A stretch of 64,000 bases of DNA from Lactarius indigo (Eukaryota; Basidiomycota; Agaricomycetes; Russulales; Russulaceae), in the NCBI GenBank assembly GCA_025766275.1, contig JAFKAC010000063.1:281903-345902 (forward strand). The letters run 5' to 3'. Under the pieces are notes generated by a model. It saw nothing but the letters and a program-made list of their open reading frames with translations, did no database searches and was not told the DNA's origin. The position numbers and the translations under genes were made by a program. Shown here piece by piece: positions 7,481-64,000 of the stretch (position 1 is its first letter; each line of letters starts with the position of its first letter).

Positions 7481-7579
7481 CCCCGGGCCGATACGACAAT
7501 CCGATGCAGATGGGTCAGAATGGCGTCAGGATGCGCGCCGCGGAGCGAAGCAAGCTCCGCAGTAGAGCTAATTGTGCTG

Positions 7580-40034: not shown

Positions 40035-43000
40035 ATGATCACCGTCGAACCGCCAACTCCTTCGCCTGAACTACCAACTCACAAGCCCTCCTTGGCTGAC
40101 CTCAGTCGAAATGCATCGGTCATATCTTCCTCCTCCTCGTCTAGTTCCACCACCTCCCTAGTTCTCCCCGTTCGTCCCCGCCCAATACGAACATTCTCTT
40201 CACCTCGCTCTCGGAGCCCTGGGGGTCCACCAACTCCAAAGGCGTCTCGACCCCCCGCTTACATCACCCGCGAGCTCGGCATCGCGGATCAGCCTATAGA
40301 TTCACCTGCCGGTCGCTCTCGCGCCAACTCAAAGTCCAAGTCTCGCAGTAGCTCAGCGAATGGTCGTCTCAGCGCAGACGATTTCGAATTCGGTGACATC
40401 CTCGGCGAAGGATCATACTCCACTGTGCGTTTTCTCTCTTTGTCACTTTCTCCACCTCGCACCGCCTTGCTTACATGCTACTGATCGTATAGGTGATACA
40501 TGGCACTCACCGCGCAACGAGACAAGAATATGCCATCAAGGTCCTTGACAAGGGTCACCTCAAGCGCAACAACAAGCTCAACACCGCTCTCGCTGAAAAA
40601 AACACCCTCGTCCGCCTTGGCTCTGGTCATCCGGGCATCGTGCGTTTACATTGGGCTTTCCAAGATGATTGGAGTCTTTGTGAGTCTCCACTTTCTCTTA
40701 CCTTGTCCGTCAAGTGGTAGCCGGCCGTCGCGACCGTGGTCCTCTGGCTACTACCGAAGATTTTCCGTCGCGATCGTCGTCCCCTCGGGCTGCCTCCAGT
40801 AGGCGCTCGCTTCCTGCACCCACCCTGCGTACCGTAATTGGTTGCAACCGCGCCGTCCATTTCGGTATTGTTGGGCAACAAGCCCCCGATACTCATGCCC
40901 TCTCTCCCGTGCTCGGTTGACAAACCGATCGTTGTGGCGTCCTGAAAGAGAATGTTCACGTCACTTCGGGGCGATACGTTTCACTTTTGGTGTCTGTGGG
41001 TTCTCGTGTGCATGCCTTTGGAGACCTACATCGCTTCTTTGCTTGACAAGGGTTCTGAGTAGCTGCCTGCTGACACCTTGCCCAGACTTTGTCCTTGACC
41101 TCGCACGTAACGGAGAACTCCAAAGTCGGATCTCGCGCATGGGCTCACTGTCAACGACATGCGCACGATACTATACTGCCCAGCTTGTTGATGCCCTCGA
41201 CTACATGCATTTACGTGGCGTCATCCACCGGTGCGCACGTGTCGCTCCCTTACTGTTCCCCACTTGTTGATCCCCGTTGCCAGCGACCTCAAACCGGAAA
41301 ACTTGCTGCTGGACGATGACTTCCGAATCAAAGTTACGGACTTTGGAACCGGAAAATTAATCGATGTGCCACGTTCGTTTCTTCTTCATTTCGTGGATGG
41401 CGAAAAGGCCTCATGTTATCGTTCTAGCCGAGCGTGCGACCAAGACATTTGTCGGTACCGCGCAATACGTCTCTCCGGAGTTGCTCGAAGCAAATGAGAC
41501 TAGCAAGAGGTATGGCACATCCATTCAGCTGATTGCTTATTCGCGGTATGGCTGATGTTGCTTGTGAATTAGTTCGGACTTATGGGCACTGGGTTGTGTG
41601 CTATACCAAATGATCGCTGGTCGATTCGCGTTCCAAGGGTTGTCCGAGTATTTGACATGGCAAAAGATCAAGCAGCTTGACTACACGTTTCCTGAGGGCT
41701 TCGATCCAGAAGCTGCCGACCTCGTGCGACGCCTCCTGGTGCGCTTCACCCTGAATTAATTTGTCAATTTGTGCTCATGGATTGTCGGCATAGGTACGTG
41801 ATCCACTGGAGCGATTAGGCGCCGGTCTAGCTGGGAGCGATTATTCGATGGAGGAATTGCGCGCGCACCCATTCTTTGTGACTATTCGCTGGGACACACT
41901 CTGGGATGACCCGGCACCACCACTAGAGACGGGACTTGTACGACGCGAACCGGCACCCGCTGATGAATGGGATGATGTCGGGGCGACTTGGGATGAACTT
42001 GTCGGTCCAGATGGGAGCGACGACGAAGACGAGGACGACGGAAGCTCGGACAGCCCACATCCGCATCCACATGCGCACGTGCGCTTACGAGTACCCGGGG
42101 ACGACGGGATCGAGTGGGCCCCTGATGCACAGGCGTACGTGTCACCACCCGCCATACCACCTGAAGAAATAGGACCGCACGGGGAAATGCCAGATTACGC
42201 GCGCGAAGCACATCCTCTACTCGGGGCCGTCGACGGTGTAGGTGCCTCGATGGCCACGGGTGGTGATGTCGAGGATGCACAGGGCGAGCACTCGGATGGC
42301 ACCGGCACGGATGGGACTGTCAGTGGGACTTACGGGATACACTTTGCTTTGCCCGGGATTGACAGAGTGTCGAAGAATACAGGTCCGGGCACGGGCGCGG
42401 TCGCGGTCGCGGGCGACGCGGCTACTGGCGAGGCTACTGGCTCTGGCGTGCGTCCTGGTCCTGGTCACGGTCCTGGTCCCGGACCAGGGAAAGACAAAGA
42501 TGAGGAGGGGGCGAGCCCGGTAAGTTCGAGCACAGAGACGGGAGACGGAGAGGGAGGAACGGCCGCGGGCGAGGCGCCGCCGCGGACCAGTGCACCGCTG
42601 CGCGTACCACGTGCCGTGCGCGATTCGTACGCTACGAGCTCGTCGGACGGCAGCCCCGTTGAGAAGCTCAGCGCTGCGCTCGAGGCGATGGGGATTCACC
42701 GAGGCAGACTGCGGACGCGAAGCCCAACGCCCGCGCGCACGACTCCTCCATCCGCGTCTATCGAGTCCCCAGACTGGTACGCCCCCATCTCCTTCCTCTC
42801 CGTGTCAGGCGCCTTATGACGACATTGCGCGCTATTTTAGGGCGTCTGCGCTAAGCGCGGGCGAGACGATTCTGTTCCATGCTCCCGTGGGCGAAACGGC
42901 ACTGAAACGGCGCACGTCGCGACTCCTGCTACCGCTGCCTGTAGCGCAGCGCAAGCCGAAGGTGCGCGAGCTCGCGCTGACGAGTCATCGGCTGGTATGC

Positions 43001-43405
43001 CTCAAGCCGCTGAAGAGCGGTCGTGGGGTCGGGATCAAGGCTGAGTTTGCGCTGCGCGAGGCACAGGCGCCGCCATCGACGGGCCGTGAGAAGCGCACGA
43101 AGAGCGACGAGGCGCGCGGGACGATCACGGGGGTCGAGCGCAAGAGCGCAAAGGAGTTTGTCGTGTTGACCGTGCGTACAGACGCTCGTGTGCGCTGACC
43201 GACGTGCTGACGTGATGTGCGACAGACGGCCAAGTCGGCCTTTTTTGTCGTCGACAGCGAGACTGCGGCAGACGGTTGGGTCCGGCGCATAGCAGAGGCG
43301 CTGCAGCAGCACGCTACGCAACATCGCGAGCACAAGCCGTCCACAAGCAACAACAACAATAGCAACAGCAACAATAATAACAATGTCAGCGCTGCACGCA
43401 CATAA
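40035..43405 (+). CDS. PDK1/Pkh-type AGC kinase with C-terminal PH-like domain
   Basis: Nine exons (40035-40424, 40493-40679, 41086-41230, 41284-41372, 41428-41509, 41573-41738, 41794-42776, 42841-43171, 43226-43405) encode 850 residues. After a Ser/Pro-rich N-terminus, the kinase domain begins DFEFGDILGEGSYSTVIHGT. It has YAIKVLDKGHL, the catalytic loop HRDLKPENLLL split across an intron, VTDFGTGK and the PDK1-typical activation loop TFVGTAQYVSPELL, then SDLWALGCVLYQM. A 300-residue Gly/Asp/Pro-rich linker leads to a PH-like domain (GETILFHAPVGETALKRRTS onwards) and a poly-Asn tail. PDK1 phosphorylates the activation loops of other AGC kinases at the plasma membrane or eisosomes. The 406-nt third-exon intron is far longer than its neighbours. 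The DNA from exon 7 onward is duplicated at 52892. Confidence 0.9.
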
Positions 43406-44060
43406 TTTATCGTCGTTTTTATATGCCTCCAGTGTTCGCCGTGGATCTCAAACTCGTTGCCCTTCGCCCCTCGCTCTTCGATCTTCGTCCCTGTAAATGT
43501 TTCTAATCCATCACCGACAACTACCACTACGCACACTCGCACCCGCACCCGTACTCGCACACCATCGGCACCGTCAACACCAAAGTCACCCGCTGCAACC
43601 GAATCCACGAGCCCTTCACTTCCTCTCTTCTCCTCAATATCCCCCTTTTTTTTCTCTACCATCCCAAAACGAATACGGCAAGCAAGCAAAGGCGTAAACT
43701 CTGTACATGATTAGGGGCAATTTCGGTAACTTATGATTCAATTTTTTTTTGGTGTTTAAGCTTGCAGGAAGGGCAGGGTGACTCACGAGTGTTTTGGTTC
43801 TCGTGCGGAGCTAACGAACGACGATCCCTTGGTTTTTCCTTAATTTTTTGTGGACCCGGTTTTTGTTATATCGCGCACAGACCGAATGTTTCCGTTTAAA
43901 AGTGTCTATTTATTTTGCTGCATTTTCTTTTCGTTCAATACCATCCATCCATTCGCAATCAGGTCTCTTTGTAAGTTTTCCAAAAAAGAGTATTTGGATT
44001 GAGGGTACGTGTAAAGTCAAAAGATACTTTTTAGATTTCGGTCTTAGATTTGGAGGTTGT
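43406..44060. other. Convergent 3' flanks of PDK1 and ILV6
   Basis: Contains both 3' UTRs, with T-rich runs near 43640 and 43740. No gene. The first 400 bases are identical by eye to 54409-54815 in unit 2. Confidence 0.6.
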
Positions 44061-45337
44061 CTAGCCGGGAGGGAGCAAGCTCGCGTCGACAGTTGACCCT
44101 GCTTCACTGGAGGTGTCGTCATCGGCCAACCCGGCGATAGGGGTGCGCGGCATAGCCATCAACCCTGAAAAAACAGCAGACCTCAGCACAAAAATGACTA
44201 GTGCTAAAAAAACAAAACACACCAGTGCGCGCAGATTCGATAATCCCGAACGGCTTCACGAGGGCAAGGAACGCCTCAACGCGCGACGTCTTCCCCGTCA
44301 TCTCGACGATGACGCTATGATCGCTCACGTCTACCAACCTCGCGCCAAACTGGTTCGCGAGCGTGTGCAGCGAGTGCAGATGCTGATGCCGCTGGCGCAG
44401 CGCCTCGCTCGGCGTGAGGGGCTTCCCGCCCTCCTCTCCCTCCGATGCCGCCGGCGTGGGGGACGGCGAAGGCTGCGGGCGCGTGGACTCCTCAAAGTGG
44501 CGCGCGAGGGCCATCTCACGCTCGAGCTTGGTCTGCTCGGCGTGAGCACGGTGCGCGGCGCGCGGCTCGTGCGAGGGCCCGCCTTCGAGCTGGTCCTCGA
44601 GGTACTCGGGCCCCAGGATGGACACTTTGACGAGGAGGAGCTCGCGCGAGATCGTGCGCGTCTCTGTGTAGTCTAGTACGGCCCACACTGGCACCTGTGC
44701 AAGGGTTTGTGAGGGAGGGATGATGGTGGTTGAAGGTGGAGGGAGAGGGAGAAACGCACGAGGTCTTCGAGCTGTCGGCGTGCTTGCTCGACGACGCCGT
44801 CTTGCCCGCTGATGACGATGCACATACGACTTAGGTCACGTATCTCGGTGCGGCATACGACGAGCGAGTCGATGTTGAATCCGCGGCCTGCGAGAATCCC
44901 GGATACGCGCGACAGCACACCAGGCTCGTTCTGGACGAGACAGTTGAGCACATGCCTGGACAATAAGTTTCGTCAGCCCCGCGCAATGAAAAAAATAAAA
45001 TAGTAAACACGTGGCCGTATCGAAATAAAATGAGAAAGAAAAAAAAGAAAAAAAAAATTGCTACTTACTTTTTGTACGGCTGTAGGCTCGGTGGAGGTGT
45101 GTTGTAGAGGATGTTCGTCACTGCCTCCTCTGCAGATCGTGAACGCGGTAGGTCCATCTTTGGGAGGGGCGGAGGCCTGACCTTGTGCGACGTCTTGTAG
45201 TCGAGCGCGGACGTCGAGTCGTCGATCGGAGGCGGGGGCTTGGGAGGAGTTCCATCGGATAAGACGCGCACCGTCGAGGACAGCCCCCGCGTCGTAGAGA
45301 GGGTTCTTGAGATCACGCGAGCCCGAGCAGCGAGCAT
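44061..45337 (-). CDS. ILV6: Acetolactate synthase regulatory (small) subunit, copy 1
   Basis: Four exons (45337-45069, 44955-44760, 44694-44223, 44164-44061) encode 346 residues. The first 40 residues (MLAARARVISRTLSTTRGLS) are Arg/Ser-rich and look like a mitochondrial presequence. The ACT domain follows: HVLNCLVQNEPGVLSRVSGI, LAGRGFNIDSLVVCRTE, LSRMCIVISG. The C-terminal regulatory domain has RELLLVKVSILGPEYLEDQL, LANQFGARLVDVSDHSVIVE and VEAFLALVKPFGIIESARTG. Ilv6 stimulates the catalytic subunit Ilv2 and confers valine feedback in the mitochondrial branched-chain amino acid pathway. An insert rich in Ser, Pro and Glu separates two parts of the C-terminal domain. It is head-to-head with NLR2, 199 bases between starts. 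Confidence 0.93.
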
Positions 45338-45536
45338 TTTTGTAAGAGGTTTTGTGGATGATGCGAGCGAGTGGGAGTTGCCCCTGGACTTGTCAGGTTG
45401 ACCAAGTCGACGTATGATCGACGACCGAGGCGACCGTCACGCGATGCATCAGGTGACCTGCTTGGCACGATCCTGGGCGGCAGCATGAACAATAGCTAAC
45501 TCTACTGTACGACTCTAACAACCAAAAACATCTAGT
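45338..45536. promoter_or_regulatory. Divergent promoter between ILV6 copy 1 and NLR2
   Basis: 199 bases between the two start codons. Compared with the copy at 56345 it shows small indels: a 9-base difference around gaccgaggcgaccgtc and others near the cacgatcctgg segment. No named binding site was recognised. Confidence 0.5.
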
Positions 45537-48500
45537 ATGGCTGCTCCACAACGCCGGCATATTTCGTGCGTAAATGGCCATTTACCCATGACCTTTTTGA
45601 TACATATGACCCACTACTCCAGCCCGGGTCCCTCGGCATCGCAAGATCTCAGAAGAGGGTCCCTCGATCCCCTTTTGCGTGTTCTGATACCCGGCCAAGA
45701 ACCGTCCTTGGACAACCCTCGAATCCCAGAACCGCAGGGAGGCCCATCCCAGCTCCGTGTTGAGGTGACCGGTATGTACTTGAGTCCTAACTGGCCTGGC
45801 CTGTTGATTCCCCGATAAGCATTTTAATGTCTCTTTTAGTCCTCCGGGCACACAACCTCCCTCGTCTCAAGAATGTTTTTGGCCTGAAGTTCTTTGTTAT
45901 TGTCGCCAGTCAGGCGACAGAAAAGAAGACACCAAGTGTTTCGACTAAGAGGCAGACGGCGAGGTGGGCTGAGAGCCTTGGAGCCTTGTAAGACATCCCT
46001 TTCAGTCCTCTTCTTCGGCTGAGAGTTCTGTTCAGCACTCTGCAACCGTCTACACCTCTTATACTACGTCTTTATGCGGAACGGTTCGCACGTCAGGATA
46101 TCCTTATCGGAACACATGAGATGATACCCGTCGAATCCCAAATCGGTTCGTTTCTTATTAGAAACCCCACTTGTTCCACCCGCTAACATCTCGAGTAATA
46201 GACACTCCTGTCGTCCTCACCAACGGCGACAGACAGGATGGACAGTTGATCGAGCCAGTCATGCTCTACTTGACAGTCACTGTGTCACCGAACACAACTT
46301 CCCATCCGATCTTGCCCATCAACCCCCCCACTTCGCAACCGATCAAAATCGACGACGAAGCCGAGAGGCCCTCTATACCACAGGACTCCACGATCCCTAC
46401 TTGTTCCACCGTCACCACCGGCTCTGAAACTGTCTCACCTGCCGAGAATGCTCTCCATGGCGCCGACGAAGCTTTGGCGACAATCAATCTCTCGAACACA
46501 TGGGAGGGTACTCTTGAAAGGGTCAAGTGGGTGATGGATATCGTGGGCCCAGTCGCAGAAGTGCGTTACAACCTCCCTGCGAGCCAGTACTTGACTGAAC
46601 CGAACTTCGCCCTCAGCTCCATCCGTATGCAAAGATGGCACACACTCTACTTTTTGCGATCCCCAACGTGAGCTCCTCGCTCCATTGTCGGTTTGAAAAT
46701 GCTTATGTTTATTTGGTTGCCAGATCCTCCTAGAACAGTTTCAACGCGATTACAACATTCGAACTCTGCTTGTTGCTATGCACGATTCCTTTGATTTCGC
46801 GAACCAAGAGGACCGTTTCAAAGCTATCAGGCGTGATTCCAAGCAGGCGCAAATCCTCACGCTCATGTTGCAGCATGTCTGTAATTGCTGTGACTTTATC
46901 CAATCATACGCGAAGGATTCCCAATTCTGTACGTAATAATTACCCATTTCAGTGCCTAACGTAAACATGTGGTTTTCAGGGAAGCGAATATTGAAGAATA
47001 TTGGCAGCCAAGCCGACAAACAAATCGAGGACTTCTGTACCACCCTCCTTGAACACCGAAGGGCTTTCTTAGATGAGGCCGCCATCACCACAGAGATAAC
47101 CGCACTCCAAATCCTGGACGATGTGGGAATAATCTCGGCCAGCGTGGGCAGGATTTCAAGTCAGCTTGACGGCATGGTTAGCCGGCTGAAGTGGGTGTCT
47201 AGCCAAGTCTTAGACGCTGGTACGTAGTCCTGATACATTGAGGGTTCTCGACCTGAGGATTGCCATCACAGAACTAGATGCAAAAATCAGAGAAATACCA
47301 TACGGAACGGGCTCGCGATTCACACCCGACAAGGGTTGCCTTACGGGAACACGTACGGCATTCCTGGAGTTCATTGTCAATTGGGTGAACGATCCCTCTT
47401 CCGAGCGTTGTCTCGTTCTTTTCGGGCAAGCTGGCACGGGAAAGTCATGTATTGCGCACGAGATCGCACGTCGCTTCGATAAAATGCACCGCCTTACGTC
47501 ATCGTTTATCTTTTTGCGGAAGGAGCAATCCAAGCGGGAAGCTTACCACCTTTTCACGACTCTTGCTCGCGACCTCTCCGACCGCTATCCTTCATTCAAA
47601 GCCGCGCTTGGAAGGGTCGTGAAGGACAACTCCTCTCTTCGAGTCGGCACACGTGACTACGATACCCTGTTTCAATCCCTCATCCTGGAACCGCTTAAGG
47701 GCCTGCACATCGTCGGTCCTATACTTGTTGTGATCGATGCCCTCGACGAGAGTGGGGATGCGACCGGTAGAACTGGATTACACACGTTTCTCGCTAAAAA
47801 CCTCGTCGGGCTCCCATCCAACTTCCGCGTCCTCATTACCTCGCGGCCAGAGGACGGCATCGAGTCGGCGCTAGTCGGGGCGCCATCAGTCACGATCAAA
47901 CGCATGAACGATTCTGAGCTGGCCGCCAAAATGCGTGACGATATCCTCGCCTTTCTTCGGGAGAAGCTCCCCTCGGACGAGTTCAGAGATTACGGCGACG
48001 ATCTGGCAATGAAGGCGGAGGGATTGTTTCAGTGGGCAGCAGTTGCTAGTCAAATCATCCTAGACCCTCCTGGGCGCTTTGGTTTTAACAGGAAAAAGGT
48101 TATAAGTCATCTCTTAAAGCTCAGTGCAAATCGCGATGGACAGGACCCCTTGGATGAGCTATACAAGGAAGTCCTTGAAGCATACTTCACAGACCGAGAA
48201 GCACGACTCCTATTTCGCACTGTCGTGGGACAGCTCCTCACTGCAATTGAGCCCCTCAGTATCCGCTCCCTGACCACTCTACGACGACACGCCGACGATG
48301 ACGGTGATGCCGTTGTTATATTACTCCGTCGCCTTGGCTCGTTGTTGAGTAATGTCAATTCAACCGAAGAAAATCTTCCCGTCATTCCCCTCCACACATC
48401 ATTCCGCGATTTCCTTACCAATAAAGAGAAGAGCGGCGATTTTTATATCGGCTCTCGTGACGCTCATCATCAATTGGCCCATTCCTGTCTCAATCTACTG

Positions 48501-50996
48501 CTTAAAGACCTCAAATTCAACATCTGTAATCTCGAAACGTCATATCTTGCCAATAAGGACGTCACAGACCTCAGCTTCCGCGTTGATAAACACATCCCAC
48601 CTGCGCTGTTGTACGCGTGTTGTTTCTGGGATGATCATATGGAACACATTGGTTTCGAAACCGATCTGTTTAGAAAACTTGGCAGCTTCTTCGAGAAGAA
48701 ACTTCTGTTTTGGTTGGAAGTCCTCAGCTTGACAAGTCGTCTGGGTCTTGCTTCGGCAGCGTGCTCGGCTGTGAGCATGTGGTTAGCCTCTGGTCAAGCC
48801 GGTAAACAAGGTGTAAGTACAATTGTTGATCCGATGATGAAGGCAAAGAACTAATAATTACAATTGCAACAGGTTTCTCAGCCGGAACTAGAGAAACTGA
48901 GGTCATTGGTCCATGATGCGTCTGTATTTATACGGCATTTCGGGATGCCCATGGCAAAGAGTGCTCCACATGTCTATCTTTCTGCTCTACCATTTGCGCC
49001 GTCTCGTTCTCCTGTCTCTGCACATTATTCAAGCTTATTTCCTCGAATATTACGGGTGGAACGTGGACGATTTTCTCATTGGCCATCATCGGAGATGGTG
49101 ATCCCAACCATTGAGGGTGCGGTCCTTTCCGTTGCAATCTCACCGGATGGCCAGCGCATCGTGTCAGGCTCGAGCGATGGAACAATTCGTGTGTGGAACG
49201 CCATCACGGGAGAGACAGAGGCAGGACCATTTTTTGTTCACACGGATTCGGTCTTGTCTGTGGGATTCTCGCCAGACGGCCAACGCATCGTGTCAGGCTC
49301 GTTCGATGGAACAATTCGTGTGTGGAACGCCAGCACGGGAGAGATAGAGGCCCACCCATTTACCGGTCACACAGATTCGGTCACGTCTGTAGGATTCTTG
49401 CCAGATGGCCACCGTATCGTCTTCGGCTCGCGCGATCGAACAATTCGTGTGTGGAACGCCAACACGGGAGAGATAGAGGCCCGCCCATTCACTGGTCACA
49501 CGGATTTGGTCTCGTCTGTGGGATTCTCACCAGATGGCCACCGCATCATCTCAGGCTCGGACGATGGAACAATTCGTGTGTGGAATGCCAGCACGGGAGA
49601 GATAGAGGCCGGTTCATTTACTGGTCACACGGGCTCAGTCTTGTCTGTGGGATTCTCGCCAGATGGCCAGCGCGTCGTTTCAGGCTCAAGCGATGAAACA
49701 ATTCGTGTGTGGAACGCCAGCACGGGAGAGATAGAGGCCGGCCCATTTACTGGTCACGCGGGCTCAGTCTTGTCTGTTGGATTCTCGTCAGATGGCCAGC
49801 GCGTCGTGTCAGGCTCAAGCGATGAAACAATTCGTGTGTGGAATGCCAGCACGGGAGAGATAGAGGCCCACCCATTTACTGGTCACACGGATTCGGTCTG
49901 GTTCGTGGGATTCTCGCCAGATGGCCAGTGCGTCGTGTCAGGCTCGGACGATGGAACAATTCGTGTGTGGAACGCCAGCACGGGAGAGGCAGAGGCAGGA
50001 CCATTTACTTGTCACACAGATTCGGTCTCGTCTGTGGGATTCTCGCCAGATGGCCACCCCATCGTCTCAAGCTCGAACGATGGAACAATTCGTGTATGGA
50101 ACGCCAGAACGGGAGAGATAGAGGCCGGCCCATTTACTGGTCACACGTCTTCGGTCTCGTCTGTGGGATTCTCGCCAGATGGCCAGCGCGTCGTGTCTGG
50201 CTCGGACGATGGAACAATTCGTGTGTGGAACGCCAGAACGGGAGAGATAGAGGCCGGCCCATTTACTGGTCACGCGGGCTCAGTCTTGTCTGTGGGATTC
50301 TCGCTAGATGGCCAGCGCGTCGTGTCAGGCTCGCACGATGGAACAATTCGTGTGTGGAACGCCAGCACGGGAGAGATAGAGGCCGGCCCGTTTACTGGTC
50401 ACACGTCTTCGGTCTTGTCTTTGGGACTCTCACCAGATGGCCAGTGCGTCGTGTCAGGCTCGGACGATGGAACAATTCGTGTGTGGAACACCTGCACGGG
50501 AGAGATAGAGGCCAGCCCAATTATTAGTCACTTGGATTCAGTCTCGTCTGTGGGATTCTCGCCAGATGGCCAGTGCTTCGTGTCAGGCTCGGATGATCAA
50601 ACAATTTGTGTGTGGGACGCCAGCACGGGAGAGATAGAGGCCGGCCCATTTATTGGTCACACGTCTTCGGTCTCGTCTGTGGGATTCTCACCAGATGGCT
50701 ACCGCATCGTCTCAGGCTCGGACGATGGAACAATTCGCGTGTGGAATGTTATGACAGAGAATACGGAAATTGGAAGCCGCGTCAACTTTGCTTACACCCT
50801 GATCGACGAGCAGGGGTGGATAGGTGGTAGTGGAGATGAACTCCTTATGTGGATCCCGGAAATGCGTAGGGCCAATCTTCATCGCCCGAGTAATATCTGG
50901 GTTGCCGGCAAATATGAAACCCGCCTTGATCTTTCGAATTTCGTACATGGGCAAAGTTGGACAGATTGTATTGATCTCGATAGAACGCTACAGTAA
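45537..50996 (+). CDS. C2-NACHT-WD40 NLR-type receptor (NLR2)
   Basis: Nine exons (45537-45771, 45840-45987, 46036-46145, 46202-46560, 46617-46667, 46724-46928, 46980-47219, 47272-48812, 48873-50996) encode 1670 residues. An N-terminal C2-like domain (RVEVTVLRAHNLPRLKNVFG, then FARQDILIGTHEMIP) is followed by a helical region (LLFAIPNILLEQFQRD). The NACHT domain has P-loop GQAGTGKSC at about residue 501 and ILVVIDALDES near 600. Thirteen 43-residue WD40 repeats of the type SVGFSPDGQRVVSGSDDGTI follow, then a conserved tail ending in HGQSWTDCIDLDRTLQ. Expected to be a cytosolic STAND sensor: WD repeats bind a ligand and NACHT oligomerises with ATP. The C2 domain suggests membrane or lipid contact as output. 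No frameshift or stop. Confidence 0.92.
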
Positions 50997-51229
50997 TCCG
51001 TAGATTTTCTTTAGGCGATCTGAAGTGTAATGTGACCTGCTTCCAGTTGATGATATTAACTCATTGTGGACACGCTAACAGCTCAGTCTGACGGTCGTCA
51101 CCGGCATGGTGTCGAAGCTTTGCCACCAGGTAACGTGAGTTTGTCGGGCGATAAATTTCACCGACATGCACAATGGCAAAGAAAAGTAACTAGTTCCTTG
51201 CGACGCCAAAGGCCGTCTCCCATCGCCTC

Positions 51230-52300
51230 TCATGTGAACCGAATGTCAAAAAACATGACCAAAAACGCAATCGCGACGACGACGACGATCGACATTGTCA
51301 GACACGTCGCGAGTGCCTTTCCGCAGTGATCCCGCATGCGCATGCACTCCCGCTTCATCACGTCCAGGTTCACACCCACTTTCTCCTCTGCGATGCTATG
51401 CGAAGTACCCCGTGGTCCGCTGCCAGCGCGCCGGAGAAATGTTCCGCGTTCCGCTGCAGCTGGGCTGCCACCTGCGCTAGCTTTTCCTGCAGCGCTGTGC
51501 TGTTACGCAACGGCGCAAGTGCAGACGCCGCGTCGCCCCCAGTGTTCGCGCGCTAGTTGTAGACCGCATCCGATCCGGCAGCAGAAAGGCGTCAGACTCA
51601 TCGACCAAAACAAGGAGGGTGGTGCGAGACGTTGGTCCGTTGGCAGACTGGGTGTCTATGTCAATAGGGTCTTCGGTCTGAATGCTTCTCGAACGAGCGT
51701 CTCTGGGGAGAGGCTGTGAGATTCTGAAGTCTTCGAGTCTGTGGACGTACATCGGGAGGATACCAGGCCCACGACGGTCGCCTTATGTGGTGCTGCAAGA
51801 CTACTCCATCGCCCATAACTTTTTACGGTTGCGTTTTGAATGGCGCGTACTCGGACAAAAACTCGACCTCGGGAGACTCGAAGAGGGTGCCCACGAGTGA
51901 GACTCTGAATGTAATGAGAAACCACGGGTGTAAAACGAGTAAGGGAGTGACGCACCGCTCTTGCAAAGGCTCGTTGCGCTTGTGTAGAAGGTGCTTGATG
52001 GCGAAGTTTCTGAAGCGCACGAGGTGTTGTAGTGTCGCTTTGTAGATGTCATTTATTGCTTATAGTGATGACTGAGTCGATAGCCGGGGTAAACAGCGAA
52101 AAGCTGGAGTATGATGTCTGCCAATCGCGGTCGGTTTCGAACACACTGCCTCATGAATAAAAAAGTCCCAGACGCGACGTACTGGTAGGCGTCTCAGCAA
52201 CTTGATTATCTGCTCATGCGTGCTGGAAACAGGGCCTGTGACGGCCGCTGGTATGAACACGGGGGATGTTAGGAGAAAATACAAGGGGACAAGATAACGG
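51230..52300 (-). pseudogene. USE1-like ER SNARE pseudogene, copy 1
   Basis: Minus-strand segments fit a Use1-type t-SNARE (ER, Golgi-to-ER retrograde fusion): STHEQIIKLLRRLP near 52215, TLQHLVRFRNFAIKHLLHKR near 52010, the SNARE-motif part LAQVAAQLQRNAEHFSGALA near 51450, then VNLDVMKRECMRMRDHCGKA and a C-terminal anchor IVVVVAIAFLVMFF ending at the stop at 51230. Near 51391-51402 the coding strand carries a 5-base duplication (cgcat-type), shifting the frame between the SNARE motif and the anchor. No intron can repair it. About 76 bases present in copy 2 (62780-62865) are missing here. Upstream exon borders are uncertain. Confidence 0.55.
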
Positions 52301-52551
52301 CATTCGCACCGCAGAGCCTCTGTAGCGTTCGAGCGCCTAATACTCAAAGTGCTTAAACGTCTCCCGATCGATGAAGTACTGGCGATGGCGCCAATACTTT
52401 GTCATGCGTTTCTCGGATCCGCTGACCGCTCCCAGTTACAGCAAGTCCAGGAGAGAAAGGTGACCGTTCTGGGGAACGTAGCGGCATGCCCCTGGGCGGG
52501 CCGGCACTGTGGTTCAGAACCAGAATCACCACGGCTACACAGATCACAGCC

Positions 52552-54408
52552 ATGGCAGAAAGCCCAGCGATTCCCCCAACACTACTATCTGCGATACAGG
52601 AGACGTCTATGCCCGACAACATTCAAACCTCGAGTCTACACCCTTTCTCCTCTTCAAGCGATAAAACCGTCGCTTTCCTCCACGCGCTCCTTGACACCAC
52701 GGCACGTGTCGCGCAATCCGTGACACTGCACTCGACTACAGCCGTGAATGACTCCAGGACAGTTTCGCTACTCCGCGAGCAGTCCACCGGGCAGCACCTA
52801 CTCCACCTGGTACCCCTTTTGTATATGATGTGCCCGTCCCGGTGCAGGTTTCTCTGACCTCACCTCAGTCTCGTACACAGGTGGCGAAAACCTGGGACAC
52901 CCTCTGGGATGACCCGGCACCACCACTAGAGACTGGACTTGTACGACGCGAACCGGCACCCGCTGATGAATGGGATGATGTCGGGGCGACTTGGGATGAA
53001 CTTGTCGGTCCAGATGGGAGCGACGACGAAGACGAGGACGACGGAAGCTCGGACAGCCCACATCCGCATCCACATGCGCACGTGCGCTTACGAGTACCCG
53101 GGGACGACGGGATCGAGTGGGCCCCTGATGCACAGGCGTACGTGTCACCACCTGCCATACCACCTGAAGAAATAGGACCGCACGGGGAAATGCCAGATTA
53201 CGCGCGCGAAGCACATCCTCTACTCGGGGCCGTCGACGGTGTAGGTGCCTCGATGGCCACGGGTGGTGATGTCGAGGATGCACAGGGCGAGCACTCGGAT
53301 GGCACCGGCACGGATGGGACTGTCAGTGGGACTTACGGGATACACTTTGCTTTGCCCGGGATTGACAGAGTGTCGAAGAATACAGGTCCGGGCACTGGCG
53401 CGGTCGCGGTCGCGGGCGACGCGGCTACTGGCGAGGCTACTGGCTCTGGCGTGCGTCCTGGTCCTGGTCACGGTCCTGGTCCCGGACCAGGGAAAGACAA
53501 AGATGAGGAGGGGGCGAGCCCGGTAAGTTCGAGCACAGAGACGGGAGATGGAGAGGGAGGAACGGCCGCGGGCGAGGCGCCGCCCCGGACCAGTGCACCA
53601 CTGCGCGTACCACGTGCCGTGCGCGATTCGTACGCTACGAGCTCGTCGGACGGCAGCCCCGTTGAGAAGCTCAGCGCTGCGCTCGAGGCGATGGGGATCC
53701 ACCGAGGCAGACTGCGGACGCGAAGCCCAACGCCCGCGCGCACGACTCCTCCATCCGCGTCTATCGAGTCCCCAGACTGGTACGCCCCCATCTCCTTCCT
53801 CTCCATGTCAGGCGCCTTATGACGACGTTGCGCGCTATTTTAGGGCGTCTGCGCTAAGCGCGGGCGAGACGATTCTGTTCCATGCTCCCGTGGGCGAAAC
53901 GGCACTGAAACGGCGCACGTCGCGACTCCTGCTACCGCTGCCTGTAGCGCAGCGCAAGCCGAAGGTGCGCGAGCTCGCGCTGACGAGTCATCGGCTGGTA
54001 TGCCTCAAGCCGCTGAAGAGCGGTCGTGGGGTCGGGATCAAGGCTGAGTTTGCGCTGCGCGAGGCACAGGCGCCGCCATCGACGGGCCGTGAGAAGCGCA
54101 CGAAGAGCGACGAGGCGCGCGGGACGATCACGGGGGTCGAGCGCAAGAGCGCAAAGGAGTTTGTCGTGTTGACCGTGCGTACAGACGCTCGTGTGCGCTG
54201 ACCGACGTGCTGACGTGATGTGCGACAGACGGCCAAGTCGGCCTTTTTTGTCGTCGACAGCGAGACTGCGGCAGACGGTTGGGTCCGGCGCATAGCAGAG
54301 GCGCTGCAGCAGCACGCTACGCAACATCGCGAGCACAAGCCGTCCACAAGCAACAACAACAATAGCAACAGCAACAATAATAACAATGTCAGCGCTGCAC
54401 GCACATAA
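52552..54408 (+). CDS. Chimeric gene: gene X 5' exon fused to PDK1 C-terminal/PH region
   Basis: Model: 52552-52809, 52869-53779, 53844-54174, 54229-54408, 559 residues. The first 86 residues (MAESPAIPPTLLSAIQETSM onward) come from an unrecognised gene X, whose other copy starts at 63782. A 59-nt intron (gtaccc donor, ctgac branch-like motif, cctcag acceptor) is followed by SRTQVAKTW, and from 52892 the frame continues exactly in the PDK1 frame (DTLWDDPAPPLETG). Everything after this matches PDK1 residues 385-850, including the PH-like domain and poly-Asn tail. The kinase domain is absent. An alternative acceptor at 52847 (38-nt intron) also keeps the frame. If spliced as modelled, the product could bind the same lipids or partners as PDK1 without catalysis. 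Expression is unknown; it may instead be a silent 3' remnant. Confidence 0.6.
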
Positions 54409-55063
54409 TTTATCGTCGTTTTTATATGCCTCCAGTGTTCGCCGTGGATCTCAAACTCGTTGCCCTTCGCCCCTCGCTCTTCGATCTTCGTCCCTGTAAA
54501 TGTTTCTAATCCATCACCGACAACTACCACTACGCACACTCGCACCCGCACCCGTACTCGCACACCATCGGCACCGTCAACACCAAAGTCACCCGCTGCA
54601 ACCGAATCCACGAGCCCTTCACTTCCTCTCTTCTCCTCAATATCCCCCTTTTTTTTCTCTACCATCCCAAAACGAATACGGCAAGCAAGCAAAGGCGTAA
54701 ACTCTGTACATGATTAGGGGCAATTTCGGTAACTTATGATTCAATTTTTTTTTGGTGTTTAAGCTTGCAGGAAGGGCAGGGTGACTCACGAGTGTTTTGG
54801 TTCTCGTGCGGAGCTAGCGAGCGACGATCCCTTGGTTTTTCCTTAATTTTTTGTGGACCCGGTTTTTGTTATATCGCGCACAGACCGAATGTTTCCGTTT
54901 AAAAGTGTCTATTTATTTTGCTGCATTTTCTTTTCGTTCAATACCATCCATCCATTCGCAATCAGGTCTCTTTGTAAGTTTGCCAAAAAGAGTATTTGGA
55001 TTGAGGATACGTGTAAAGTCAAAAAGATACTTTTTAGATTTGGGTCTTAGATCTGGAGGTTGT
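54409..55063. other. Convergent 3' flanks of chimera and ILV6 copy 2
   Basis: Copy of 43406-44060. Identical by eye up to about 54815, with scattered substitutions and single-base indels after that. No gene. Confidence 0.6.
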
Positions 55064-56344
55064 CTAGCCGGGAGGGAGCAAGCTCGCGTCGACAGTTGAC
55101 CCTGCTTCAGTGGAAGTGTCGTCATCGGCCAAACCGGCGATAGGGGTGCGCGGCATAGCCATCAACCCTGAAAAAACAGCAAACCTCAGCACAAAAAAGG
55201 ACTAGTGCTAAAAAAAAGCAAAACACACCAGTGCGCGCAGATTCGATGATCCCGAACGGCTTTACGAGGGCAAGGAACGCCTCAACGCGCGACGTCTTCC
55301 CCGTCATCTCGACGATGACGCTATGATCGCTCACGTCTACCAACCTCGCACCAAACTGGTTCGCGAGCGTGTGCAGCGAGTGGAGATGCTGATGCCGCTG
55401 GCGCAGCGCCTCGCTCGGCGTGAGGGGCTTCCCGCCCTCCTCTCCCTCCGATGCCCCCGGCGTGGGGGACGGCGAAGGCTGCGGGCGCGTAGACTCCTCA
55501 AAATGGCGCGCGAGGGCCATCTCGCGCTCGAGCTTGGTCTGCTCAGCGTGGGCGCGGTGCGCGGCGCGCGGCTCGTGTGAGGGCCCGCCTTCGAGCTGGT
55601 CCTCGAGGTACTCGGGCCCGAGGATGGACACTTTGACGAGGAGGAGCTCGCGCGAGATCGTGCGCGTCTCTGTGTAGTCTAGTACGGCCCACACTGGCAC
55701 CTATGCAGGGGTTTGTGAGGGAGGGATGATGGTGGTTGAAGGTGGAGGGAGAGGGAGAAACGCACGAGGTCTTCGAGCTGTCGGCGTGCTTGCTCGACGA
55801 CGCCGTCTTGCCCGCTGATGACGATGCACATACGACTTAGGTCACGTATCTCGGTGCGGCATACGACGAGCGAGTCGATGTTGAATCCGCGGCCTGCGAG
55901 AATCCCAGATACGCGCGACAGCACACCAGGCTCGTTCTGGACGAGACAGTTGAGCACATGCCTAGACAATAGGTTTCGTTAGCCCCGCGCAATGAAAAAA
56001 AAAAAAAAAAGTAAACACGTGGCCGTATCGAAATAAAATGGAAATGAAAACGAAGAAAAAAAAAGTGCTGCTTACTTTTTGTAGGGCTGTAAGCTCGGTG
56101 GAGGCGTGTTGTAGAGGATGTTCGTCACCGCCTCCTCTGCAGACCGTGACCGCGGTAGGTCCATCTTCGGGAGGGGCGGGGGCCTGACTTTGTGCGACGT
56201 CTTGTAGTCCAACGCGGACGTCGAGTCGTCGATCGGAGGCGGGGGCTTGGGAGGAGTTCCATCGGATAAGACGCGCACCGTCGAGGACAGCCCCCGCGTC
56301 GTAGAGAGGGCTCTTGAGATCACGCGAGCCCGGGCAGCGAGCAT
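55064..56344 (-). CDS. ILV6: Acetolactate synthase regulatory (small) subunit, copy 2
   Basis: Exons 56344-56076, 55961-55766, 55700-55229 and 55167-55064 again give 346 residues with all splice sites preserved. The acceptor before exon 3 is atag instead of acag, still valid. The presequence, ACT domain and C-terminal regulatory domain are intact, with few substitutions against copy 1 (for example Ala for Thr in the presequence and Gly for Ala in the PTP-ASEGEE linker). Both copies therefore look functional, which would double the dose of a feedback-regulatory subunit unless one is silent. The exon-2/exon-1 intron is A-rich and differs in length from copy 1. Confidence 0.92.
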
Positions 56345-56547
56345 TTTTGTAAGAGGTTTTGTGGCTGATGCGAGCGAGTGGGAGTTGCCCCTGGACTCGT
56401 CAGGTTGACCAAGTCGACGTATGATCGACGACCGTCACGCGATGCATCAGGTGACCTGCTTGGGTGAAGGGCACGATCCTGGGCAGCAGCATCTATGCGA
56501 ACAATAGCTAACTCTACTGTACGACTCTAACACCAAAAACATCTAGT
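56345..56547. promoter_or_regulatory. Divergent promoter between ILV6 copy 2 and NLR3
   Basis: 203 bases, homologous to 45338-45536 but with several small indels, including inserted bases before and after the cacgatcctggg segment. These could change expression of either neighbour. Confidence 0.5.
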
Positions 56548-59500
56548 ATGGCTACTCCACAACGCCGGCATATTTCGTGCGTAAATGGCCATTTACCCAT
56601 GACCTTTTTGATACATATTACCCACTACTCCAGCCCGGGTCCCTCGGCATCGCAAGATCCCAGAAGAGGGACCCTCGATCCCCTTTTGCGTGTTCCGATA
56701 CCCGGTCAAGAACCGTCCTTGGACAACCCTCGAGTCCCAGAACCACAGGGAGGCCCATCCCAGCTCCGTGTTGAGGTGACCGGTATGTACTTGAGTCCTG
56801 ACTGGCCTGGCCTGTTGATTCCCCGATAAGCATTTTAATGTCTCTTTTAGTCCTCCGGGCACACAATCTCCCTCGTCTCAAGAATGTTTTTGGCCTGAAG
56901 TTCTTTGTTACTGTCGCCTGTCAGGCGACAGAAAAGAAGACACCAAGTGTTTCGACTAAGAGGCAGACGGCGAGGTGGGCTGAGAGCCTTGGAGCCTTGT
57001 AAGGCATCCCTTTCAGTCCTCTTCTTCGGCTGAGAGTTCTGTTCAGCACTCTACAACCGTCTACACCTCTTATACTACGTCTTTATGCGGAACGGTTCGC
57101 ACGTCGGGATATCCTTATCGGAACGCATGAGATGATACCCGTCGGATCCCAAATCAGTTCGTTTCTTATTAGAAACCTCACTTGTTCCACCCGCTAACAT
57201 CTCGAGTAATAGACACTCCTGTTGTCCTCACCAACGGCGACAGACAGGCTGGACAGTCGATAGAGCCGGTCACGCTCTACTTGACAGTCACTGTGTCACC
57301 GAACACAACTTCCCATCCGATCTTGCCCAACAACACCCCCAATCTGCAATCGACCAGAATCGACGACTCGCCTTCTAGAGAAGCCGAGAGGCCCTCTATA
57401 CCCCAGGACTCCACGATCCCTACTCGTTCCACCGTCACCACCAGCTCTGAAACTGTCTCACCTGCCGAGAATGCTCTCCATGGCGCGGACGAAGCTTTGG
57501 CGACAATCAACCTCTCGAATACATGGGAGGGTGCTCTTGAGAGGGTCAAGTGGGTGATGGATATTGTGAGCCCAGTTGCAGAAGTGCGTCGCAACCTCCT
57601 TGCGAGCCGGTACTTGACTGAGCCGAACTTCGCCCTCAGCTCCACCCGTATGCAAAGATGGCACACAGTCTACTTTTTGCGATCCCCAACGTGAGCTCCT
57701 CGCTCCATTGTTGGTTTGAAAATACTTATGTTTATTTGGACGCTAGACCCTCCTAGAACAGTTTCAACGCGATGACAACATCCGAACCTTGCTTGTTGCT
57801 ATGCACGATTCCTTTGATTTCGCGAACCAAGAGGACCGTTTCAAAGCTATCAGGCGTGATTCAAAGCAGGCGCAAATCCTCACGCTCATGTTGCAGCATG
57901 TCTGTAATTGCTGTGACTTTATCCGATCATACGCGAAGGATTCCCAATTCTGTACGTAATATTTACCCATTTCAGTGCCTAACGTAAACATGTGGTTTTC
58001 AGGGAAGCGAATATTGAAGAATACTGGCAGCCGAGCCGACAAACAAATCGAGGACTTCTGTACCACCCTCCTCGAACACCGAAGGGCTTTCTTGGATGAG
58101 GCCGCCATCACCACAGAGATAACCGCACTCCAAATTCTGGACGATGTGGGAATAATCTCGGCCAGCGTGGGCAGGATTTCAAGTCAGCTTGACGGCATGG
58201 TTAGCCGGCTGAAGTGGGTGTCTAGCCAAGTCTTAGACGCTGGTACGTAGTCCTGATACATTGAGGGTTCTCGACCTGAGGATTGCCATCACAGAACTCG
58301 ATGCAAAAATTAGAGAAATACCATACGGAACGGGTTCGCGATTCACACCCAACAAGGGCTGCCTTACGGGAACACGTACGGCGTTTCTGGAGTTCATTGT
58401 CAATTGGGTGAACGATCCCTCTTCCGAGCGTTGTCTCGTTCTTTTCGGGCAAGCTGGCACGGGAAAGTCATGTATTGCGCACGAGATCGCACGTCGCTTC
58501 GATAAAATGCACCGCCTTACGTCATCGTTTATCTTTTTGCGGAAGGAGCAATCCAAACGGGAAGCTTACCACCTATTCACGACTCTTGCTCGCGACCTCT
58601 CCGATCGCTATCCTTCATTTAAAGCCGCGCTTGGAAGGGTCGTGAAGGACAACTCCTCTCTTCGAGTCGGCACACGTGACTACGATACGCTGTTTCAATC
58701 CCTCATCCTGGAACCGCTTAAGGACCTGCACATCGTCGGTCCTATTCTTGTTGTGATCGACGCCCTCGACGAGAGTGGGGATGCGACCGGTAGAACGGGA
58801 TTACACACGTTTCTCGCTAAAAACCTCGTCGGGCTCCCTTCCAACTTCCGCGTGCTCATTACCTCGCGGCCAGAGGACGGCATTGAGTCGGCGCTAGTTG
58901 GGGTGCCATCAGTCACGATCAAACGCATGAACGATCCTAAGCTGGCCGCCAAAATGCGTGACGATATTTTCGCCTTTCTTCGGGAGAAGCTCCCCTCGGA
59001 CGAGTTCAGAGATCACGGCAACGATCTGGCAACGAAGGCGGAGGGATTGTTTCAGTGGGCGGCGGTTGCTAGTCAAATCATCCTAGATCCTCCCGGGAGC
59101 TTTGGTTTTAACAGGAAAAAGGTTATAAGCCATCTTTTAAGGCCCAGTGCAAATCGCGACGGACAAGGCCCCTTGGATGAACTATACAAGGAAGTCCTTG
59201 AAGCATACTTCACAGACCGAGAAGCACGACTCCTATTTCGCACTGTCGTGGGACAGCTCCTCACTGCAATTGAGCCCCTCAGTATCCGCTCCCTGACCAC
59301 TCTACGACGACACGCTGACGATGACGGTGATGCCGTTGTTATATTGCTTCGCCGCCTTGGCTCGTTGTTGAGTAATGTCAATTCAACCGATGAAAATCTT
59401 CCCGTCATTCCTCTCCACACGTCGTTCCGCGATTTTCTTACCAATAAAGAGAAGAGCGGCGATTTTTGTGTCAGCCTTCGTGACGCTCATCATCAATTGG

Positions 59501-62142
59501 CCCACTCCTGTCTCGATCTACTGCTCAAAGACCTCAAATTCAACATCTGCAATCTCGAAACGTCATATCTTGCCAATAAGGACGTCACAGACCTCAGCTT
59601 CCGCGTTGATAAACACATTCCACCTGTGTTGTTGTACGCGTGTCGTTTCTGGGGTGATCATATGAAACACATTGGTTTCGAAACCGATCTGTTTAGAAAA
59701 CTTGGCAGTTTCTTCTCGAAGAAACTTCTGTTTTGGTTGGAGGTCCTCAGCTTGACAGGTCGTCTGGGTCTTGCTTCGGCAGCGTGCTCGGCTGTGAGCA
59801 TGTGGTTCGCCTCTGGTCAAGCCAGTGAACAAGGTGTAAGTACAATTGTTGATTAGATGATGAAGGCGAAGAACTAACAATTACAATTGCAACAGGTTTC
59901 TCAGCCGGAACTAGAGAAACTGAGGTCGTTGGTCAATGATGCCTCTGTATTTATACGGCATTTCGCGATGACCATGGCAAAGAGTGCCCCACATGTCTAT
60001 CTTTCTGCTCTACCATTTGCGCCGTCTGGTTCTCCTATCTCTACACATTATTCAAGCTTATTTCCTCGAATATTACGGGTGGAACGTGGACGATTTTCTC
60101 ATTGGCCATCATCGGAGATGGTGATTCCGAGCGTTGGGAGTCCAGTCATTTCCATTGCAATCTCACCGGATGGCCAGCGCATCGTCTCAAACTCGAGCGA
60201 TCGAACAATTTGTGTGTGGAACGCCAGCACGGGAGAGATAGAGGCCGGCCCATTCACTGGTCACACGGATTGGGTCTGGTCTGTGGGATTCTCGCCAGAT
60301 GGCCACCGCATCGTGTCAGGCTCGGACGATGGAACAATTCGTGTGTGGAACGCCAGCACGGGAGAGATAGAGGCCGGCCCATTCACTGGTCACACGCATT
60401 CGGTCAGGTCTGTGGGATTCTCGCCAGATGGCCGCCGCATCGTGTCAGGCTCGTCCGATGGAACAATTCGTGTGTGGAACGCCAGCACGGGAGAGATAGA
60501 GGCCGGCCCATTCACTGGTCACACGTCTTCGGTCTTGTCTGTGGGATTCTCGCCAGATGGCCACCGCATCGTGTCAGGCTCGGACGATGGAACAATTCGT
60601 GTGTGGAACGCCAGCACGGGAGAGATAGAGGCCGGCCCATTCACTGGTCACACGCATTTGGTCAACTCTGTGGGATTCTCGCCAGATGGCCACCGCATCG
60701 TGTCAGGCTCGGACGATCGAACAATTCGTGTGTGGAACGCCAGCACGGGAGAGATAGAGGCCGGCCCATTCACTGGTCACACGTCTTCGGTCTTGTCTGT
60801 GGGATTCTCGCCAGATGGCCACCGCATCGTGTCAGGCTCGCACGATCGAACAATTCGTGTGTGGAACGCCAGCACGGGAGAGATAGAGGCCGGCCCATTC
60901 ACTAGTCACACGGATTGGGTCTGGTCTGTGGGATTCTCGCCAGATGGCCACCGCATCGTGTCAGGCTCGCACGATCGAACAATTCGTGTGTGGAACGCCA
61001 GCATGGGAGAGATAGAGGCCGGCCCATTCACTGGTCACACGGATTCGGTCTTGTCTGTGGGATTCTCGCCAGATGGCCACCGCGTCATGTCGGGCTCGGA
61101 CGATGGAACAATTCGTGTGTGGAACGCCAGCACGGGAGAGATAGAGGCCGGCCCATTCACTGGTCACACGTATTCGGTCAGGTCTGTGGGATTCTCGCCA
61201 GATGGCCACCGCATCGTGTCAGGCTCGAACGATGGAACAATTCGTGTGTGGAACGCCAGCACGGGAGAGATAGAGGCCGGCCCATTCACTGGTTACACGC
61301 ATTGGGTCTGGTCTGTGGGATTCTCGCCAGATGGCCACCGCATCGTGTCAGGCTCGGACGATGGAACAATTCGTGTGTGGAACGCCAGCACGGGAGAGAT
61401 AGAGGCCGGCCCATTCACTGGTCACACGTCTTCGGTCTTGTCTGTGGGATTCTCGCCAGATGGCCACCGCATCGTCTCAGACTCGGACGATGGAACAATT
61501 CGTGTGTGGAACGCCAGCACGGGAGAGATAGAGGCCGGCCCATTCACTGGTCACACGTCTCCGGTCTTGTCTGTGGGATTCTCGCCAGATGGCCACCGCA
61601 TCGTGTCAGGCTCGTCCGATCGAACAATTCGTGTGTGGAACGCCAGCACGGGAGAGATAGCGGCCGGCCCATTCACTGGTCACACAGATTCGGTCAACTC
61701 TGTGGGATTCTCGCCAGATGGCCACCGCATCGTGTCAGGCTCGGACGATGGAACAATTCGTGTGTGGAACGCCAGCACGGGAGAGATAGAGGCCGGCCCA
61801 TTCACTGGTCACACGTCTTGGGTCAGGTCTGTGGGATTCTCGCCAGATGGCCACCGCATCGTGTCAGGCTCGTCCGATCGAACAATCCGCGTGTGGAACG
61901 CTACGACCGGAAATGCGGAAACTGCAAGCCACGTCGACTTTACTAACCACTCCGTGATCGACGAGCAGGGGTGGATATGTGGTAGTGGAGGTGAACTCCT
62001 TATGTGGATCCCAGAAATGCGTAGGGCCAATCTTCATCGCCCGAGTAATATCTGGGTTGCTGGCGAATATGAAACTCGCCTCGATCTTTCGAATTTCGTA
62101 CATGGGCAAAGTTGGACAGATTGTATTGACATCTCGATATAA
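56548..62142 (+). CDS. C2-NACHT-WD40 NLR-type receptor (NLR3)
   Basis: Nine exons (56548-56782, 56851-56998, 57047-57156, 57213-57583, 57640-57690, 57747-57951, 58003-58242, 58295-59835, 59896-62142) encode 1715 residues. The C2 and NACHT parts are close to NLR2 (same P-loop GQAGTGKSC and IDALDES motif), with a four-residue insertion (SPSR) in exon 4. The last exon holds 14 WD40 repeats that are almost copies of one another at DNA level. Variation is concentrated just after GHT (DW, HS, SS, HL, YS, HW, SP, SW), two residues later (W, R, L or N before SVGFSPDG) and in the S-D-G/R-TIRVWN turn. The tail is conserved to the end. No defect seen. Repeat number (14 versus 13) is the main size difference from NLR2. 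Confidence 0.92.
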
Positions 62143-62387
62143 CGCTACAGTCATCCGTAAATTTTCTTTAGGCGATCTGAAGTGTAATGTGATGTGCTTC
62201 GGATTGATAATATTAGCTCATTGAGGACACGCTAACAACTCAGTCCGACGGTCAGTCACCGGCATGGTGTCGAAGCTTTGCCACCAGGTCACGTGAGTTT
62301 GTCGGGCGATAAATTTCACCGACACGCACAATGGCAAAGAAATGTAATTATTTCCTTGCGACGCCAATGGCCGTCTCCCATCGCCTC

Positions 62388-63530
62388 TCATGTGAACCGG
62401 ATGACAAAAAACATGACCAAAAACGCAATCGCGACGACGACGACGCTCGTCATTATCAGACACGTCGCCCCGAGTGCCTTTCCGCAGTGATCCCGCATGT
62501 ACATGTGCTCCCGCTTCATCACGTCCAGGTTCGCACCCATTTTCTCCTCTGCGATGCGATGCGAAGTACCCCGTGGTCCGCTGCCAGCGCGCCGGAGAAG
62601 TGCTCCACGTTCCGCCGCAGCTGGCCTGCCACCTGCGCTCGCTCCCCCTGCAGCGCTGTGCTGTTACGTAACGGCGCAGGTGCAGACGCCGCGTCGCCTC
62701 TAGTGTTGCGCGCGCTAGTTGTAGACCGCGTCCGATCCGGCAGCAGAAAGGCGTCAGACTCGTCGGCCAAAACAAGGAGCAGGCCCACGTCCGCCGCAGC
62801 TGCGGCTGCGGAGGCCTCTGCATCTTCAGTGGTGAGAAGAAACGTGCGAAGGTGGTGCGAGCCGTTGGTCCGTTGGCAGATCGGGTGTTTGCGTCAATAG
62901 GGTCTTCGGTCTGAATGCTTCTCGAACGAGCGCCTCTGGGGAGAAGCTGTGAGATTCTGAAGTCTTCGAGTCTGTGGACGTACATCGGGAGGACAACAGG
63001 CCCACGACGGTCGCCTCATGTGGTACTGCAAGACTATTCCATCGCCCATAACTTTTTACGGTTGTGTTTTGAATGGCGCGTACTCAGACAAAAACTCGAC
63101 CTCGGGAGACTCGAAGAGGGTGCCCACGAGTGAGACTCTGAATGTAATGAGAATCCACGGGTGTAAAACGAGTAAGGGAGTGACGCACCGCTCTTGCAAA
63201 GGCTCGTTGCGCTTGTGTAGAAGGTGCTTGATGGCGAAGTTTCTGAAGCGCACGAGGTGTTGTAGTGTCGCTTTGTAAATGACGTTTATTGCTTATAGTG
63301 ATGACAGAGTCGATGGCCGGGGTAAATAGCGAACAGCTGGAATATGATGTCTGCAATCGCGGTCGGCTTCGAACACACTGCCTCATGAATAAAAAGCGCC
63401 AGACGCGACGTACTGGTAGGCGTCTCAGCAGCTTGATTATCTGCTCATGCGTGCTGGGTACAGGCCCTGTGACGGCCGCTGGTATGAACACGGAAAATGT
63501 TAGGAGAAAATATAAGGGGACAAGATAAGG
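62388..63530 (-). pseudogene. USE1-like ER SNARE pseudogene, copy 2
   Basis: Copy of 51230-52300. It keeps STHEQIIKLLRRLP, LQHLVRFRNFAIKHLLHKR, LLLVLADESDAFLLPDRTRS, AQVAGQLRRNVEHFSGALAA, NLDVMKREHMYMRDHCGKAL and the hydrophobic anchor VVVVAIAFLVMFFVIRFT, ending at 62388. The 5-base duplication is also present (gcgatgcgatgcg on the plus strand near 62551) and breaks the frame between the SNARE motif and the anchor. It retains an Ala-rich segment lost from copy 1. If the frameshift were a sequencing artefact in both copies, this would be an ordinary SNARE gene, but two independent identical errors are unlikely. Confidence 0.55.
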
Positions 63531-63781
63531 CATTCGCACCGCAGAGCCTCTGTGGCGTTCGAGCGCCCAATATTCAAAGTGCTTAAACGTCTCCCGATCG
63601 ATGAAGTACTGGCGATGGCACCAATACTCTGTCATGCGTTCCTCGGATGCGCTGACCGCTCCCAGTTACAGCAAGTCCCGAAGAGAAAGGTGACCGTTCT
63701 GGGGAACGTAGCGGCGTGCTCCTGGGCGGGCCGGCACTGTGGTTCAGAACCAGAATCACCACGGCCACACAGATCACGGCC

Positions 63782-64000
63782 ATGGCAGAAAGCCCAGCGA
63801 TTCCCCCAACACTACTGTCTGCGATACAGGAGACGTCCATGCCCGACAACATCCAAACCTCAGGTCTACATCCTTTCTCCTCTTCAAGCGATAAAACCGT
63901 CGCTTTCCTCCACGCGCTCCTCGACACCACGGCACGTGTCGCGCAATCCGTGACACTGCACTCGACTACAGCCGTAAATGACTCCAGGACAGTTTCGCTA
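63782..64000 (+). CDS. Gene X, unrecognised, 5' exon only (cut by right edge)
   Basis: Open from the ATG at 63782 to the window end (73 codons): MAESPAIPPTLLSAIQETSM, later DKTVAFLHALLDTTARVAQS and HSTTAVNDSRTVSL. Compared with 52552-52770 I count eight codon differences, of which seven are synonymous in this frame and one changes Ser to Gly, strong evidence that this strand and frame are coding and were constrained. No family recognised. The N-terminus is probably disordered, followed by a helical stretch. Confidence 0.6.
   Translation, partial: MAESPAIPPTLLSAIQETSMPDNIQTSGLHPFSSSSDKTVAFLHALLDTTARVAQSVTLHSTTAVNDSRTVSL

Follow-up and report, generated by a model that had tools for sequence, protein, structure and literature searches.

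The window analysed here is the terminal 64 kb of Lactarius indigo contig C252 (345,902 bases; assembly of 90.3 Mb in 291 contigs), and it holds, on its forward strand at 52552-54408, an open frame that joins the 5' part of a gene identified as MED1 (Mediator complex subunit 1) to the 3' part of PDK1 (3-phosphoinositide-dependent protein kinase 1; Pkh in yeast). The initial annotation had read this stretch as an in-frame chimera of an unnamed gene X with the PH-domain half of PDK1, and our analysis bears this out. The joint lies at 52892/52893, where MED1 sequence ending ...GCGAAAACC gives way to PDK1 sequence beginning TGGGACAC..., with one shared C as a 1-bp microhomology; a 25-mer spanning it has a single occurrence in the genome when up to three mismatches are allowed. 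Both breakpoints are intragenic and one open frame is kept across them. The fusion comprises MED1 codons 1-94, 86 from exon 1 and eight from exon 2, followed by PDK1 codons 386-850, a refinement of the earlier reading. Its four exons (52552-52809, 52869-53779, 53844-54174 and 54229-54408) total 1680 nt, as first counted, with one terminal stop. Exon 1 is the 86-codon MED1 exon 1, recognised from orthologous N-termini, and exon 2 carries the eight MED1 codons to 52892 and the PDK1 tail from 52893. Spliced translation places the first part of the PH fold, as assigned on an ortholog, in exon 3, and the end of the fold, an Asn-rich C-terminus and the stop TAA in exon 4.

The MED1 intron at 52810-52868 (59 nt, GT...CTCAG) was drawn as originally proposed, since 11 of the 15 fetched homologous proteins run directly across it with ...HL|S-TQV-type residues. 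The remaining homologs vary: the implied AG is 21 nt upstream in P0001 and 12 nt downstream in P0023, while P0011 also deviates and P0025 is a more remote homolog. The window has AGs at 52847, 52868 and 52880, all three of which keep the frame, while unspliced chimera RNA would meet a stop at codon 101. Donor and acceptor are also present in three further contigs: C35, which we take as the allelic haplotype because it is 96.7% identical to the window across 29.9 kb, and C24 and C272, which carry paralogs (see below). A 1-nt insertion in C35, single-base differences in C24 and C272, and the readability of the intron in another frame had cast doubt on exon 1 and its intron, a doubt that the homologs remove. 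The two PDK1 introns kept in the chimera, at 53780-53843 (64 nt) and 54175-54228 (54 nt), had been placed before any comparison with orthologs and agree with P0122 and P0123, so that the claimed preservation of the later PDK1 splice sites also stands.

Both parents are represented in the window. The PDK1 gene that supplied the tail lies at 40035-43405 on the forward strand, with an open frame of nine exons encoding 850 aa; its spliced translation matches P0121-P0123, although two intron boundaries upstream of the tail were set with these orthologs in view, and its family profile matches the human PDK1 kinase at 6.4e-107. For gene X, its pieces recovered 132 relatives among 7996 scored candidates, the best among the matches listed (120) coming from Lactarius species. 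Many of the farther relatives bear the name Mediator complex subunit 1 in a source, and we identify X as MED1 on the strength of these named homologs. The Pfam family Med1 (PF10744) gave no match in the MED1 read-through or in the genome, but 14 controls were likewise silent. A second MED1 start, exon 1 at 63782-64000 on the forward strand, is in frame for 219 nt up to the contig end.

The chimera sits at the junction of a tandem duplication. Self-comparison of the window resolves a first copy of the unit (A, 41889-52892), which runs from the PDK1 3' exons through ILV6 and a NACHT/WD40 gene to the MED1 5' part, and a second copy (B, 52892-64000) in the same forward orientation, which is cut off by the contig end 122 bp short of the unit end. 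Over the longest aligned stretch, 8890 columns against 52892-61769 in copy B, copy A is 94.9% identical, and the differences are mostly substitutions; here and elsewhere, DNA identities and copy counts from the window self-comparison and from the window against the genome refer to the matches listed. In C35 the order PDK1, ILV6, NACHT/WD40 gene, MED1 is present once, so the parents stand near each other, single and unduplicated, and its MED1 continues through the point at which the window returns into PDK1. Copy B is 96.4% identical to C35, and alignment shows A, B and C35 to be three distinct sequences. At least one haplotype therefore has two copies, whatever view is taken of the join. DNA and protein searches of the genome found the PDK1 tail in the two C252 copies and C35 only, and none on C24 or C272. 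Those two contigs carry a paralogous block, ILV6-NACHT/WD40-MED1, at about 80-88% identity piece by piece, and they look like an allelic pair themselves because long stretches of them outside the repeats match at about 96-98%.

The relationship of the three copies changes along the unit. Within its first 2 kb A and B differ at 12 sites, against 28 for A and C35 and 30 for B and C35, and at 42889-43888 A and B differ at only 2 of 999 aligned sites; beyond the first 2 kb A-B divergence often equals or exceeds allelic divergence, and at 45858-46845 B is closer to C35. Across 41889-64000, then, the nearest neighbour among A, B and C35 switches in a mosaic, a sequence pattern that points to gene conversion or interallelic recombination, with sequence passing between copies or alleles. 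Because the copies are mosaics, A-B divergence was abandoned as a means of dating the duplication.

The predicted product has 559 aa. Compared with PDK1 it retains the linker plus the PH-fold domain at the C-terminus and lacks the kinase domain save its last residues; compared with MED1 it has the first 94 of about 615 residues, together with the first intron and the 5' region, and has lost over four fifths of the protein. Pfam returned no match on the whole chimera or on the MED1 read-through, and the tail alone gave PH_3 weakly, at E 0.16, below the cut-off. Among 25 relatives, Pkinase was found in 24, all full-length, and was absent from the tail-only P0132, while PH was recognised by sequence in two and PH_3 in one. 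The predicted structure of the orthologous tail P0132 has a PH fold, and this model supports a PH-fold C-terminal domain in the chimera, with a basic b1-b2 loop (KRRTSR...RKPKVR) predicted from its sequence. In line with the initial annotation, this is a duplication-born in-frame chimera behind the 5' region of another gene, kinase-less and with a PH-type tail. Our analysis adds the PH fold modelled on an ortholog and the absence of the fusion from the allelic contig. Judged from its sequence, the product could be located at membranes and not signal; just as well, the chimera may be barely expressed.

Three Lactarius quietus protein models (P0128, P0132 and P0141) also have the PDK1 tail but no complete kinase domain, and the partial P0128 starts DTLWDEP, one residue beyond the L. 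indigo breakpoint. These models may reflect either a site that breaks repeatedly or an effect of annotation.

We consider it probable that the locus is a genuine, young, haplotype-limited MED1::PDK1 chimeric gene, a by-product of the 11-kb duplication that also copied an NLR-like gene. A tandem duplication that ends inside two genes places the 5' end of one onto the 3' end of the other. In one L. indigo haplotype, the segment PDK1(3' exons)-ILV6-NACHT/WD40-MED1(5' part) would have been duplicated in tandem, with end-joining at a one-base microhomology uniting MED1 exon 2 and PDK1 exon 7 between codons. The outcome would be an in-frame MED1(1-94)::PDK1(386-850), with PDK1 left open upstream and the MED1 start, so far as the contig extends, open in the second copy. 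Transcription could plausibly proceed from the copied MED1 5' region, which is present in both units, and the mRNA would be spliced like those of the parents to give the 559-aa kinase-less protein. The NLR-like gene class turns over by duplication, and we regard the fusion as a by-product of such turnover because the duplicated unit holds an NLR-like NACHT/WD40 gene; this would be the most likely route to the duplication, and the chimera would then be a by-product of recent origin whose function is not settled.

Several points weigh against a genuine young chimera. The link to NLR turnover is one that we infer. A distance of 11.1 kb separates the joint from the contig end, the one tested 6-kb stretch downstream matches only C35 itself, and the MED1 3' part of the fused haplotype was found on no contig. 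Nor was the fusion met among proteins, the level at which the other Lactarius genomes were compared. A search with the whole chimera recovered 103 proteins of 7991 scored, none above 84% coverage, roughly what the PDK1 part makes up by itself. With residues 64-128, which span the joint, 74 matches among 112 candidates reached at most 75% coverage and none had the fusion; in all eight of those at 74-75% coverage, the joint is preceded by the usual kinase end of PDK1. The protein database was clustered at 90% identity, so a fused protein may be hidden in it.

We think it unlikely that selection instead maintains the chimera as a new gene whose product, a PDK1 PH-tail protein lacking the kinase and expressed from the MED1 5' region, competes with PDK1 for membrane lipid or partners. 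The one signal of selection is the pattern of codon changes in the PDK1 tail, with seven synonymous and no nonsynonymous changes on the B branch, one synonymous change on A, and nine synonymous and four nonsynonymous on C35. Seven of seven synonymous changes would arise without constraint with a probability of 0.7e-4 to 2.5e-4, and at the B synonymous rate one would expect about 19 amino-acid changes, against none observed (this takes 377 synonymous sites and 1018 nonsynonymous ones, set by hand from computed fractions). The 1517-bp tail is also free of indels among A, B and C35, and the MED1 part differs between A and copy B at one of 73 comparable residues. However, the same pattern would be seen if the changes had already accumulated in a normal PDK1 allele when the fusion formed, or if sequence is exchanged between A and B, as their near-identity at 42889-43888 would allow, and the fusion is absent from C35. 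The B-branch synonymous changes may be older than the fusion; we do not claim selection on it, because B-specific changes would be ordinary PDK1 polymorphism had the duplication joined two different alleles, and because the mosaic points to exchange. The stop-free 1680-nt frame, although correctly noted at the outset, says little here. A frame is kept at a joint with a chance of 1/3, and a random change in the tail yields a stop with a probability of 0.022-0.027, so its survival through the eight A/B codon differences means little when stops arise in about 2.2-2.7% of changes. Frame and splice sites would persist in a young duplicate even in the absence of selection.

We also judge it improbable that copy B was misattached to A in assembly, with no fusion in the cell. 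The nearness of the contig end, which falls 122 bp before the unit would close, and the tested downstream stretch that matches C35 alone would both suit such an artefact. Yet B is neither A nor C35, and so does not represent an insertion of the other allele; most of its differences are substitutions and it retains large open frames. A false join would, moreover, have to fall by coincidence within two exons and in frame, though the frame alone has one chance in three. The simpler variant, that copy B is the other allele placed in tandem, is ruled out by the three distinct sequences.

In a more far-reaching version, which strikes us as improbable, the chimera would be a working new gene confined to one nuclear type of the dikaryon and encode a PH-tail decoy, devoid of the kinase, that damps PDK1/Pkh signalling. 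Were it true, the two nuclei of one mycelium would differ in a core growth-control pathway.

A genuine young chimera has counterparts elsewhere. Chimeric genes at tandem-duplication breakpoints in Drosophila yakuba and simulans (PMC5460883, PMC4503668) are likewise reported from only some chromosomes; here the host is a basidiomycete, both parents are conserved regulators, duplicated and unduplicated haplotypes occur in one assembly, and expression is something we infer. Mushrooms offer another natural case of two genes fused in frame, the basidiomycete spermidine synthase-saccharopine reductase, found in several species by the title of its report (PMC10051792), whereas MED1::PDK1 is present in a single haplotype, is not a duplication-free fusion and would keep no enzyme activity. 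Literature titles among the matches listed included none on MED1, PDK1 or NLR genes in Lactarius and none reporting the L. indigo genome, and we do not claim that the fusion is unreported. The locus would present the birth of a chimeric gene with its before (C35) and after (fused allele) states in the same assembly, both parents being conserved regulators and the frame open, and these alleles together allow a direct test of whether accidental fusions of this sort become expressed and are retained.

MED1 is normally single-copy. In Lactarius it is multi-copy, with at least five L. sanguifluus matches on a 165,131-base contig and at least three in L. deliciosus on a 779,674-base contig. No complete open MED1 was found among the copies located in the L. 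indigo genome: those on C272 (L035) and C24 (L036) each have a TAG within the matched stretch, and the C35 copy (L009, about 5800-8010, minus strand) shows single-base frame changes relative to homologs, which may be either decay or assembly error.

As to the neighbours within the unit, copy A contains a segment of ILV6, the gene for the small subunit of acetolactate synthase, at 44119-44514 on the reverse strand (Pfam ALS_ss_C, 6.2e-17). The NACHT-type (NPHP3_N)/WD40 gene, assigned by Pfam, occupies 47484-50996 in copy A and 58507-62142 in copy B, on the forward strand and as two large open frames in each. Fungal NACHT-WD40 genes undergo concerted repeat evolution. WD40 arrays lie at 3046-4900, 49120-50750 and 60140-61900, built of a 129-bp (43-codon) unit that is alike within each array.
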